From Taurinivorans muris (GTDB lineage: Bacteria; Desulfobacterota; Desulfovibrionia; Desulfovibrionales; Desulfovibrionaceae), in contig NZ_CP065938.1 of assembly GCF_025232395.1 (NCBI RefSeq), positions 558,001 through 622,000 of the forward strand: a DNA stretch of 64,000 bases. Direction: 5' to 3'. Both the position numbers and the translations under genes were made by a program. Of the stretch, positions 55,766 to 59,780 are shown piece by piece (the stretch's first letter is position 1; each line of letters opens with the position of its first letter). The notes beneath the pieces were generated by a model. It did no database searches. It was given only the letters and a program-made list of their open reading frames with translations, and had not been told where the DNA came from.

Positions 55766-56590
55766 ATGAATAAAAAGCCTAATCCCTATAAACCGATTTA
55801 TTCGGTAAAAAAAAGCTCCAAAAAATTTCAGCAAATACAAAAATCAACACGGAAATTATCTGTTGAAAATTTGAAAGAACAATGTTTGAGGCTTGGCTTT
55901 TCCCTTACGCTGCCGCAGCTTTCCGCTTTGTATGAATATCTTTTCCTGCTGCAAAAATGGAATCTGTCCATGAACTTGGTGGGAAAATCGGATTGGGAAG
56001 AAATTTTATCAGAACTTGTCGCGGACAGTTTTCACCTTGCGAAATATCTTAATTCCCACCCTGTTTTTGCACCCCTTTCCATTCCGATCGCACAAAAAAA
56101 CGAAAAAATCCATTCCTTTGAACCCTATGAAAACGAACATGATTTTACTGCATGGGACTTGGGTGCTGGAGCGGGACTGCCGGGCATTCCTTTACGGATA
56201 CTTTGGAAGCAAGGAACATATACCCTTGTTGAGGCAAGGGAAAAACGTTCGCTTTTTTTAAATACGGTTTGTACCAAACTCGGATTGGAAAATACTTTTG
56301 TCAGCCGCGGGCGGGCGGAAAATTTTATGCAGGGAAAAAAAGCTCGGCTCATTGTCAGCCGAGCGTTCATGCCCTATGATAAAATGCTTCCTTTCATCGC
56401 CCCATATTTGACCTCAACCCAAGATCCGGCAAATTCTGCAAACGGTTCCGTTATTTTCCTGAGTTTGGAACCAATTCGTGCCGAACGCTTCAATTCTTCG
56501 GAATTTAAATGGAATACGAAAAATATTTACGAATATACAGTGAAAAATAAGAAAAAATATCTTTGTGAAATTGAAAAAATCAGCCAATAA
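55766..56590 (+). CDS. rsmG: 16S rRNA (guanine(527)-N(7))-methyltransferase
   Basis: 274 residues, longer than E. coli RsmG (207), with a basic N-terminal extension (about 1-35) and an insert after SHPV. Core: LLQKWNLSMNLVGKSD, motif I WDLGAGAGLPGIPLRIL, VEAREKRSLFLNTV, SRAFMPYDKMLPF. The enzyme methylates G527 of 16S rRNA; loss gives low-level streptomycin resistance in other bacteria. It starts 3 bases after plsC. Confidence 0.92.
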   Translation: MNKKPNPYKPIYSVKKSSKKFQQIQKSTRKLSVENLKEQCLRLGFSLTLPQLSALYEYLFLLQKWNLSMNLVGKSDWEEILSELVADSFHLAKYLNSHPVFAPLSIPIAQKNEKIHSFEPYENEHDFTAWDLGAGAGLPGIPLRILWKQGTYTLVEAREKRSLFLNTVCTKLGLENTFVSRGRAENFMQGKKARLIVSRAFMPYDKMLPFIAPYLTSTQDPANSANGSVIFLSLEPIRAERFNSSEFKWNTKNIYEYTVKNKKKYLCEIEKISQ

Positions 56591-56646
56591 ACACTAAATT
56601 CTTTGGTTCATATGCAAATTTTAAATAGAAATGCTCAACAAAAAAC

Positions 56647-56675
56647 TTGCCATTACAGATAAAGTAACGTATAAA
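56647..56675 (+). promoter_or_regulatory. sigma-70 promoter of tRNA-Phe copy 2
   Basis: TTGCCA, 17-base spacer, TATAAA, 13 bases before the tRNA. Confidence 0.75.
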
Positions 56676-56688
56676 GAAACCTCACGTT

Positions 56689-56764
<76 letters not shown>

Positions 56765-56806
56765 CAAATTAAAACTTTTATGCATTATAAATATAAAGTA
56801 TTATAA

Positions 56807-56836
56807 AAAAACTGCCGCAATTCATGGCAGTTTTTT
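56807..56836 (+). terminator. terminator of tRNA-Phe copy 2
   Basis: AAAAACTGCC, nine-base loop, GGCAGTTTTTT. Confidence 0.88.
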
Positions 56837-56899
56837 GTTTTTATCGGAATAAGTTTCCCAATTACTTTGATACGTCTTCTTTGAAAATTTTTTATAGCA

Positions 56900-57060
56900 T
56901 ATAATGAATACACACCAAGGGGTTCACCTCTTGAACCCGGTCAAAGGATAAGATAACGGTGGAAATCCCGCCTTTTGTTTCGCAGTCCTTATCAGTAACT
57001 TACTTCCGCTTCCAAAAAGTGAAACGTCTGAACGCAAAAAACATGCACAACGTTTTTATA
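56900..57060 (+). ncRNA. candidate structured RNA, faintly cobalamin-riboswitch-like
   Basis: A TATAAT box at 56900-56905 precedes a run of local helices: GGGTTCA-loop-TGAACCC (about 56920-56938), GATAAG / CTTATC enclosing GGTGG-AAATC-CCGCC, and a closing AAAAAAC / GTTTTTAT with T run near 57053. The order GGTGGAAATCC, CGCAGTCC, CAGTAAC, CTTCC, AAGTG and GTCTGAACG parallels the core and box order of cobalamin riboswitches, but key bases differ. No + strand gene follows, so it is either a stand-alone RNA or an orphaned leader. Confidence 0.4.
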
Positions 57061-57107
57061 TGTTATTATGATACGTTGATTATATAATTCCAAACAATTT
57101 TCATAGC

Positions 57108-57968
57108 CTAGTTCGGGTAAATGACAGCTAACGCTTCACGAACGACAGAAACAGGCATTTGGGTCGGATTTGAGCCTTTAACACCTGATGCAAAAGTCAA
57201 ATCAATACCGAACAAGCCTCCTATCAATCGGGAAATTCTGCCGATATCCCCGCTTGCGGAAGCAATGACAGGATATTTTGAATACGTACGGCGGAATGTC
57301 AATATGCCCTTTAAAAACGTTAATACATCTTCTTCGCTGTTTGGTTTCACGACGATTTTTGCAATATCAGCACCTGCGGCAATTTCCCTGTCCATAATCT
57401 TTACTATTTCATCGGCTGTCGGAGTCGCATTCATATCATGATACGCCACAACCAAGGAAATTCCGGAATTAACCAATTCTTTTTTAAAAGATTGAATTTT
57501 TTCTTCTCCGTAAGCCAGTTCCATATCGATCAGTTCAACTAACTTTTCTTTTGCGGCAGCCCTGTAAAAATTAAACTTAGCTTTGTCGGAAACGTCTTTA
57601 TATCCCCGTTCGGCTTTTATCCGGACGGTTAATAACATCGGAACATCACCAATGATTTTATCAATATCCCTAAGCATTGCGACAGAAGCATGAGTATCTT
57701 CAATACAATCCCAAAAATCAGCACGCACTTCGACCATATCAGGCTTCAGTTCAGCAACGAATTTTGCTTCTTCCAGTATTTTGTCTTTTGCCGTTGCTGT
57801 AAGCGGAACGCACACTACCGGCATGTTTCCGCCAAGAACGGTATTTCCATAGCTTAGCGGGTGTGTCGGCATCGGACGTTTGTAAGCTTCCGCAAAAGCC
57901 ATTGCAGCAAATGATGAAATAAGCAGTGCGATAACCACGGTAAAAAAAATAGTTTTTTTAATATTCAT
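57108..57968 (-). CDS. aroD: type I 3-dehydroquinate dehydratase with signal peptide (exported)
   Basis: 286 residues. Residues 1-26 form a signal peptide (KK, then hydrophobic 6-22, AMAFA-E cleavage site). The rest is a complete type I dehydroquinase: EVRAD (E80, R82, D84), TVRIKAERGY (R116, E120), catalytic H177 in AYHDMN, Schiff-base K204 in ADIAKIVV, SRLIGGLFG, and Gln in SNPTQMP. It would dehydrate 3-dehydroquinate to 3-dehydroshikimate outside the cytoplasm, as in quinate-using bacteria, rather than in aromatic biosynthesis. An AGGAGGAA ribosome site precedes it. It stands alone, with no quinate dehydrogenase nearby. Confidence 0.88.
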   Translation of the reverse strand: MNIKKTIFFTVVIALLISSFAAMAFAEAYKRPMPTHPLSYGNTVLGGNMPVVCVPLTATAKDKILEEAKFVAELKPDMVEVRADFWDCIEDTHASVAMLRDIDKIIGDVPMLLTVRIKAERGYKDVSDKAKFNFYRAAAKEKLVELIDMELAYGEEKIQSFKKELVNSGISLVVAYHDMNATPTADEIVKIMDREIAAGADIAKIVVKPNSEEDVLTFLKGILTFRRTYSKYPVIASASGDIGRISRLIGGLFGIDLTFASGVKGSNPTQMPVSVVREALAVIYPN

Positions 57969-58411
57969 AGGATATTCCTCCTAAAAAGTTTCCTATCGTA
58001 TTAATTAAAATAAAACCTTTTCCTTGTCAACTATCAGGATTTACAAGCATTATTTCCTATAACTATCCATAACCAAAGATACGTGCAAATGAGGCGGAAC
58101 AGATAAAACATCATGCGGATATGGCAATGCAGTCCGTCATTTCTATCATAATGACATTCTTTTAATCACCGGATTGCCGTAAAATTTTACCAATTTCATC
58201 TTATAATCATACATATATTTCTTCAGAGCAAAATGTTAAAGTGCTCTGTCAACAACCATTGACTGTTGTTCGTACGGTATACCGCTCTTTGATTTCGGCA
58301 GAGTTTTTGCCTGGCGAACACAGCAAAACATACCGGAAAAGGACTATCTTGGTTTCTGAAAATTTTTCATTGCGTCGGTCTAGCCGGTGCTTTTTTTTGT
58401 GCTAACGCCGC
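57969..58411. other. intergenic region, mostly featureless
   Basis: About 440 bases between the glyA terminator and aroD. Apart from copy 2 of the dispersed repeat at its left end I see no gene, promoter or hairpin to report. Confidence 0.4.
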
Positions 58412-58421
58412 AAAAAAAGCC
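58361..58421 (-). repeat. dispersed repeat, copy 2 (downstream of glyA)
   Basis: Second copy of the element at 44631-44688, again directly 3' of a - strand terminator, with longer T and A tracts. Confidence 0.5.
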
Positions 58422-58450
58422 ATTGGCATAACTATGGTTATAACAATGGC
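58412..58450 (-). terminator. intrinsic terminator of glyA
   Basis: On the - strand GCCATTG...CAATGGC encloses ATAAC-CATA-GTTAT and is followed by T7. Another G5/C5 hairpin (about 58463-58488) lies between it and glyA. Confidence 0.85.
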
Positions 58451-58529
58451 ATATAAGGATTGGGGGAAATAATTCCCCCCCAAAAAAAAACAAGATTATT
58501 GCAAAAATAAAATTATCATAACAAAAAAA

Positions 58530-59780
58530 CTAATACGCAAACAACGGATAGCGGCTTGCAAATTCCGCAACGGCTTTGTTGATTTTTTCCAAATGGCTGT
58601 CGTCATTCACATGAGCAAGCACATCGATAATCCATTCAGCCACTTGATCCATTTCTTTTTCTTTCATGCCGCGGGTTGTAAGCGCAGGTGTTCCGATACG
58701 TACGCCGCTCGTCACAAAAGGTGAACGGGTTTCAAAAGGAACGGTATTTTTATTCACGGTAATACCGGCCTTATCAAGAGCATGTTCCGCGTCTTTGCCC
58801 GTAATGTCCTTATTGGTCAAATCCAAAAGCATCAAATGATTATCCGTTCCGCCGGAAACAATATCATAACCGGCGTCAAGCAAACGCTTCGCGAGATGAC
58901 TTGCATTTTTGAGAACTTGTTTTTGGTACTCGACAAAGCCGGGACGGAGAGCCTCACCGAAAGCCACAGCTTTGGCAGCAATGACATGCATTAAAGGTCC
59001 GCCTTGAATGCCGGGGAAAATTTGGCTGTTAATCGTTTTCGCCAAACCATTTTCTTCCGTGCTGTTTGCCAAAATCATACCGCCGCGAGGACCGCGCAAT
59101 GTTTTATGGGTGGTTGTCGTCGTAATATGGGCATGAGGGACAGGAGAGGGATGAAGCCCCGCTGCAACAAGCCCCGCAATATGAGCCATATCGACTAACA
59201 GTTTCGCGCCGATACTGTCTGCGATTTTGCGGAAACGTTCAAAATCAATAATACGTGAATAAGCGCTCGCACCAGCAACGATGACCTGCGGTTTCTTTTC
59301 ATGTGCGATTTGCTCTAACGCTTCATAATCAATTACGCCTGTTTCCTTATCAACGCCATAGGAAATGATATTGAAAAGCTTACCGGAAAAGTTTACGGGA
59401 CTGCCGTGGGTCAAATGCCCGCCGTGGGATAAATCCATTCCTAAAATAGTATCTCCGGGTTTCGCAATGGCGAAATAAGCTCCCATATTTGCCTGACTTC
59501 CGGAATGAGGCTGCACGTTCACATAATTGCAGCCGAAAATCTGCATGGCACGTTCCTGAGCGATGCTTTCCGGAATATCAACGTACTCGCAGCCGCCATA
59601 ATATCTTTTACCCGGATAACCTTCTGCATATTTATGAGTCAAAATGGAACCTTGAGCTTCACGAACAGCGTTGGAAACAAAATTTTCAGAAGCGATCAAT
59701 TCCAATTTGGTTACTTGTCTTCTGTTTTCATCATAAATTGCTTCTGCAATTCTGGGGTCTTGGGAAATGATGTTTTGCAT
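58530..59780 (-). CDS. glyA: serine hydroxymethyltransferase
   Basis: 416 residues, full length. [51 protein letters not shown] and the PLP lysine in [14 protein letters not shown] are all intact. It converts serine and tetrahydrofolate to glycine and methylene-tetrahydrofolate. It is the last gene of the fatty-acid cluster but is separated from fabF by a strong hairpin with T7, so only part of its transcription should come from there. Confidence 0.98.

Follow-up and report, generated by a model that had tools for sequence, protein, structure and literature searches.

The minus-strand gene at positions 57108–57968 of the window, a 64,000-nucleotide stretch of the chromosome of the mouse-gut sulfidogen Taurinivorans muris, encodes a type I 3-dehydroquinase-family protein with a predicted signal peptide. 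We propose, with a probability of about one half, that its product is a periplasmic dehydratase of 3-dehydroquinate or a close analogue, which gained its leader, changed its substrate pocket and is kin to an anaerobic, flavoprotein-linked system. What appears new here, as read from sequence, is the remodelled pocket of the clade to which the protein belongs (clade A), the independently acquired leaders of a further clade (clade B), and the linkage of such genes to sensor, regulator and flavoprotein genes in Sutterellaceae.

A leader-bearing type I dehydroquinase gene

The open reading frame (57108..57968, minus strand) is complete, with 286 codons encoding 286 amino acids. Its ATG (57966–57968) lies 8 nt downstream of a Shine–Dalgarno sequence, AGGAGG (57977..57982, minus strand). 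The protein is a member of the type I 3-dehydroquinase sequence family: PF01487 matched over the full model (1e-52, 180 bits against a cut-off of 22.2), and NCBIfam aroD TIGR01093 scored 152 bits against a cut-off of 139.3. By sequence, the closest solved structure was 2yr1, a type I dehydroquinase (1.7e-40, with the alignment starting at residue 40). The AlphaFold2 model, built from three aligned rows, had a mean pLDDT of 72, with residues 23–38 and 245–275 below 50; the best 35 Foldseek matches of this model in the PDB were all type I dehydroquinases (top TM 0.75/0.83).

Residues 1–26 (57891..57968, minus strand) form a predicted Sec signal peptide, with an MNIKK start containing two lysines, a hydrophobic core and an AMAFA-EA end, the predicted site falling between AFA and EA. 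This leader was called from composition, the AXA site and a hydropathy comparison rather than by a signal-peptide predictor. Its maximum 15-residue hydropathy was 2.61 (2.03–2.78 across the four clade A proteins), as compared with 0.53–1.69 in 18 sequences with a cytoplasmic label, among them E. coli AroD, and 1.45–1.53 in two further leaderless relatives. The form of the leader is conserved and its sequence hardly at all, with 9/26 residues identical to the Mailhella copy (L004) and 7/26 to the Sutterella copy (L005). A spurious start is unlikely, because the leader lies behind a Shine–Dalgarno sequence and an ATG, and because L004, L005 and L038/L040 show the same pattern despite the low identity to L004 and L005. 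The reading frame, ribosome site, PF01487 match and Sec-type leader bear out the first-pass annotation of a dehydroquinase with a signal peptide at this place.

The gene appears to stand alone, given a gap of ∼560 nt to its upstream neighbour, a glyA-like gene from the list of reading frames, named by eye (58530..59780, minus strand). A tRNA gene lies downstream (56689..56761, plus strand; Rfam RF00005, 64 bits) and was the only RNA element found by an Rfam search of 56500–58700. No qui-like gene was seen beside the dehydroquinase gene. There was no compositional sign of recent transfer, since its GC3 (0.37) falls within the range of eight neighbours (0.34–0.47).

Other shikimate-pathway genes in T. 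muris

The genome is a single contig of 2,172,708 bases, in which the window gene was the only PF01487 match. A type II dehydroquinase (AroQ, 1.6e-42), AroE and a class II dehydroquinate synthase are encoded elsewhere. Because these are present separately, the window copy need not be biosynthetic, and the presence of AroQ rejects it as the sole, biosynthetic dehydroquinase. The first-pass annotation had been staked beforehand on a second dehydroquinase in the genome, which AroQ supplies. TIGR03074, the model for membrane PQQ dehydrogenases such as QuiA, matched 0/7 genomes tested, that of T. muris included, while it matched four control genomes, E. coli among them. These results urge caution against annotating the T. 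muris window gene as biosynthetic aroD.

The metagenome-assembled genome UBA8003 encodes an identical protein, and its DNA is 99.0% identical over 4 kb. UBA8003 has been assigned to T. muris, for which the strain LT0009 genome is given as 2.2 Mb (PMC10507020). Collinearity between the window and the UBA8003 contig ends at the tRNA gene 3′ of the dehydroquinase gene. Past this tRNA (window 56670–56761), the UBA8003 contig continues with DNA like that at 27–29 kb of the window, which reflects either a rearrangement between strains or a wrong join at a repeat.

Distribution and descent

Clade A consists of four sequences: the window protein, L004 from Mailhella (L004 and L082 are one locus), L005 from Sutterella massiliensis, and L038 from genome G199. 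When the window protein was searched against 149 genomes of its family, 11 matched at 1e-3, and a clade A profile matched 5 of 348 genomes of the class at 1e-50. In these searches, clade A genes with a leader occurred in two T. muris entries and in a single Mailhella genome (the L004 contig), and two matching genomes held leaderless sisters (L009 and L010). Four further genomes of the genus were examined, and none had a match. Broken clade A-like remnants were seen in two other Desulfovibrionaceae (L016/L018 in G073, L019 in G126), which suggests, as far as sequence can tell, gain and loss of the gene within this family. A pattern-limited scan of genome contigs returned only three relatives and missed L038. 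A tblastn search of 72,556 plasmid records gave 60 matches, all below 60% identity; judged by eye, a type I copy on a Novosphingobium plasmid also begins with an RR-type leader.

Of the 67 genomes in the family to which Sutterella genome G149 belongs, two had clade A at 1e-60, and PF01487 gave 31 matches in 24 genomes. Sorted by reading their N-termini, these comprised 13 with a leader (2 clade A and 11 clade B, G211:C10 included in the 13), 17 leaderless genes and one fragment. The hydropathy of clade B leaders (1.19–1.79) overlaps the cytoplasmic range, and they were recognized instead by an RR-type start, an AXA end and an extended N-terminus; they are possibly Tat leaders. In the Sutterella locus, two HipA/HTH-like genes, named by eye, separate the clade A gene from another stretch that matches it in part (L005:9017-10910). 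This suggests that an insertion duplicated the end of the clade A gene.

Clade A, including the window gene together with the Sutterellaceae copies, was recovered as one clade with support of 100/99, with the leaderless L009 and L010 as its sisters. Clade B was likewise one clade (99/98). The first tree, like the residue table below, leaves out L011, L017, L048, L049, L050, L056 and L062 (further leaderless copies, several nearly duplicating rows that were retained) and the fragments L016, L018, L019 and L065. A single clade of A plus B was rejected (p-AU 0.0005), and the two sets of leaders were therefore gained independently. Judged from these sequences, leaders on type I dehydroquinases arose more than once and are not new in themselves.

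Catalytic residues are kept and surrounding residues differ in clade A

Residues were compared across 35 aligned sequences (4 clade A and 31 others) with E. coli AroD as the ruler. Ten of ten positions checked (E46, R48, T80, R82, E86, H143, K170, R213, S232 and Q236) were kept in all four clade A proteins. PMC9902378 assigns carboxylate binding to R213 and Q236, the latter on a substrate-covering loop, and binding of the C4/C5 hydroxyls to E46, R48 and R82. In the window protein, the Schiff-base, catalytic, carboxylate and loop residues K204, H177, E120, R247, S266 and Q270 are all present. By alignment, the Schiff-base lysine K204 (E. coli K170) is encoded at 57357..57359, the catalytic histidine H177 (E. 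coli H143) at 57438..57440 and the carboxylate-binding arginine R247 (E. coli R213) at 57228..57230, all on the minus strand. Aspartate replaces the catalytic E86 in 5/31 non-A sequences, all of them in clade B. Between the window gene and L004, pN was 0.158 and pS 0.886, synonymous change being saturated.

Six positions, picked out of 33 inspected, differ in all four clade A proteins from all 31 others: F145M/L, M174K, M203S, M205S, A233N and G235T/W. Among the 31, F145, M205, A233 and G235 are invariant, M203 is found in 28 (I in three) and M174 in all but one (I). The window residues at F145, M203, M205 and A233 are M, S, S and N, absent from every one of the 31, so that on this alignment the protein does not carry the residues of a canonical 3-dehydroquinate-specific AroD. 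The model places the changed residues where barrel strands 5–7 end or just beyond and, at low confidence, in the loop that leads into the last helix. S237-A238-S239 (57252..57260, minus strand), in which S237 and S239 replace Met203 and Met205, is placed by alignment and model at the end of strand 7; S266-N-P-T-Q270 (57159..57173, minus strand) forms the altered loop, placed by alignment in a region of low model confidence. We take Met203, Met205, Phe145 and Ala233 to line the substrate pocket, a placement we also draw from strand position. These Met, Phe and Ala residues are not found by name, under the spellings searched, in the available part of PMC9902378.

Clade A thus shares with biosynthetic type I AroD of E. 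coli and others the fold and the checked catalytic, carboxylate-binding and hydroxyl-binding residues, and differs from it in having a leader and in F145, M174, M203, M205, A233 and G235. Clade B is canonical at these six positions. Catalysis looks intact in clade A and the pocket looks remodelled. The earlier claim that all active-site residues are intact therefore holds for the ten catalytic and contact positions, but not for the six that surround them.

The Sutterellaceae sensor–regulator–flavoprotein neighbourhood

In Sutterellaceae, sensor, regulator and flavoprotein baits all matched within ∼6 kb of 12 of the 13 leader-bearing dehydroquinase genes, although several of these loci come from close relatives and so are not independent. 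L076 was the one locus without this module. The baits were taken from L005, L040, L071 and L080; when these four source loci were omitted, 8/9 leader-bearing genes still had the module. Sensor or regulator baits matched near 0/17 leaderless genes, some on short control stretches (6.0, 8.6 and 12 kb), and a lone flavoprotein match was present in two, > 8 kb away. An FMN_bind+FAD_binding_2 bait matched within ∼210 nt of 10/11 clade B genes. Because genome G199 has 84 PF00890 (FAD_binding_2) matches in 2.8 Mb, flavoprotein linkage alone is weakened as evidence, and the sensor–regulator linkage is the stronger. G149 and G199 each hold both an A and a B copy, and each copy has its own sensor–regulator–flavoprotein set. 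Clades A and B have separate origins and yet the same kind of neighbourhood, which we count in favour of a module-linked role.

Domains in the module members sampled (the kinase in L005 and L071, the regulator in L005, and several flavoproteins) were Phosphonate-bd/HisKA, Response_reg/GerE, FAD_binding_2 and FMN_bind+FAD_binding_2. The best NCBIfam match of the L071 kinase was TtrS, at 174 bits under a cut-off of 750. The same cassette, a TtrS-like kinase with a regulator of LuxR type and an FAD flavoprotein that bears a leader, recurs next to leader-bearing dehydroquinases in L005, L039, L040, L071-L075 and L077-L080. An AP_endonuc_2-type TIM barrel was encoded near 4/13 loci (L071, L078, L079 and L080), with a leader by eye in three (L071, L078 and L080). 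For the two barrels scanned (L071:11930-12883 and L080:4616-5575), QuiC, a 3-dehydroshikimate dehydratase, was the sole NCBIfam match, at 2e-7 and 9e-9, far under its cut-off.

The module flavoproteins matched flavocytochrome c3 fumarate reductase (1kss/1qo8) and urocanate reductase (6t85). A canonical fumarate reductase as partner was unsupported, since two aligned module flavoproteins lack several of what we take to be the fumarate-reductase, fumarate-binding positions; in this they differ from the known periplasmic flavoprotein reductases. We know of no dehydroquinase in the flavocytochrome c3, urocanate reductase or methacrylate reductase systems. The methacrylate reductase of Geobacter AM-1 resembles the module proteins in being a Tat-exported flavoprotein (PMC4427408). 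Among the open-access literature matches listed, no title or abstract opening described a dehydroquinase that is exported and belongs to a flavoprotein module.

The window locus differs from these systems in that no such flavoprotein lies beside the dehydroquinase gene. No module neighbour was found in the 19 kb of the window searched, nor around the Mailhella gene. The Mailhella genome gave 48 PF00890 matches, 15 of which came with loci; L107, L109 and L111 were left out, and none of the 12 read had a clear leader. In T. muris, none of 13 PF00890 matches had a leader by eye. The T. muris and Mailhella orphans mean that the enzyme occurs also without the module.

Proposed role and alternatives

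We suggest that the window enzyme descends from a leaderless type I enzyme through acquisition of a Sec signal peptide and alteration of the pocket lining. K204 would form a Schiff base, and water would be removed outside the cytoplasm from 3-dehydroquinate or a close 3-keto-cyclitol acid. In Sutterellaceae, the dehydratase would produce 3-dehydroshikimate or an analogue, an unsaturated keto-acid whose O=C-C=C-COO- group is fumarate-like, and the leader-bearing flavoproteins of the fumarate-reductase superfamily may then handle it in anaerobic electron transfer. 3-Dehydroshikimate carries such a fumarate-like keto-enoate, which makes its reduction by a flavoprotein plausible; we infer this step, since the two aligned flavoproteins lack several of the presumed fumarate-reductase residues. 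In T. muris, where the module is missing, the product would probably be imported, AroE being present, or left to neighbours. Import towards AroE would have a precedent in A. baylyi, in which the route from quinate through 3-dehydroquinate to 3-dehydroshikimate is periplasmic and 3-dehydroshikimate crosses the membrane (PMC4213383). Export, activity, substrate, the electron-acceptor role and the fate of the product in T. muris are all inferred. The periplasmic interpretation of the first-pass annotation is reasonable, and its view of a non-biosynthetic, leader-bearing enzyme accords with the separate AroQ, AroE and class II synthase; quinate use is one of several readings, and the Sutterellaceae neighbourhood speaks for a role in anaerobic redox no less than for simple catabolism of quinate or for cross-feeding.

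The plain catabolic or salvage role of QuiB, in which dietary or cross-fed 3-dehydroquinate is converted to 3-dehydroshikimate for import and aromatic biosynthesis, is possible but doubtful for the window enzyme. QuiB of A. baylyi is a periplasmic dehydroquinase that coexists with a biosynthetic one, as the window protein would, and its product feeds aromatic synthesis (PMC4213383). The T. muris genome fits this pattern in the leader, called by rules rather than a predictor, in the separate AroQ and in AroE; it departs from it in having no TIGR03074 match for QuiA and no qui-like gene next to the dehydroquinase. Acinetobacter baumannii has a leader-bearing type I copy (L136) in a pca-type cluster, after genes for the PcaK transporter and protocatechuate dioxygenase, which we take to be QuiB by its position in the gene order. 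A leader-bearing beta-helix protein, presumably QuiC, follows it, and the adjoining genes are for protocatechuate catabolism, unlike those at the window locus. Common descent with QuiB was rejected: clade A and QuiB as one clade had a p-AU of 0.0003, with QuiB on a long branch, and QuiB has the canonical pocket that clade A lacks. An enzyme that keeps the imine chemistry and acts on a substrate other than 3-dehydroquinate is an unlikely reading, although the pocket changes could signify another substrate. The six altered positions fall where barrel strands end and in the loop that leads into the last helix; the loop following strand 8 closes on the Schiff-base intermediate (PMC3931744), Q236 is on the substrate-covering loop (PMC9902378), and the co-occurrence of A and B copies with separate modules in G149 and G199 is consistent with divergence in function. 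Against this, clade A retains the residues that bind the C1 carboxylate and the C4/C5 hydroxyls in ligands of quinate type, and the six were chosen from 33 positions, their placement in the pocket being partly our assumption.

That the gene is a horizontally spread relict, functionless in T. muris and heading for loss, we consider improbable, and the least likely of these readings. Its orphan context, its absence from the four other genomes of the genus and the broken remnants in G073 and G126 would fit such a fate, but the frame is intact with a good ribosome site and every checked catalytic residue, amino-acid constraint against Mailhella is strong, and UBA8003 has the identical protein. The module-linked dehydratase remains our preferred reading. 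A bolder extension of it, which we regard as speculative and rather unlikely, is that in gut bacteria the exported A and B enzymes open a so far undescribed pathway by which quinate- or shikimate-type plant acids are respired anaerobically: the dehydratase would make the keto-acid, the flavoproteins would reduce it as terminal acceptor and the TtrS-like sensor would detect it, with clade A having taken a new substrate and moved between Sutterellaceae and Desulfovibrionaceae. Plant diets are rich in chlorogenic and quinic acids, and to our knowledge the use of the quinate ring by anaerobes is poorly resolved. The candidate periplasmic dehydratase with its linked sensor and flavoproteins offers concrete genes for a possible new electron acceptor in Sutterellaceae.

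Gluconobacter oxydans provides a further comparison: a membrane quinate dehydrogenase, QuiA, and a dehydroquinate dehydratase convert quinate to 3-dehydroshikimate, but the dehydratase is type II (AroQ) rather than type I (PMC8102297), and the PQQ-dependent step is absent from the T. muris genome. Outside the window, T. muris encodes leaderless FAD_binding_2 proteins of ∼550–610 amino acids (L021-L026), some adjoining permease-like genes by eye; these are possible paired uptake and redox systems.
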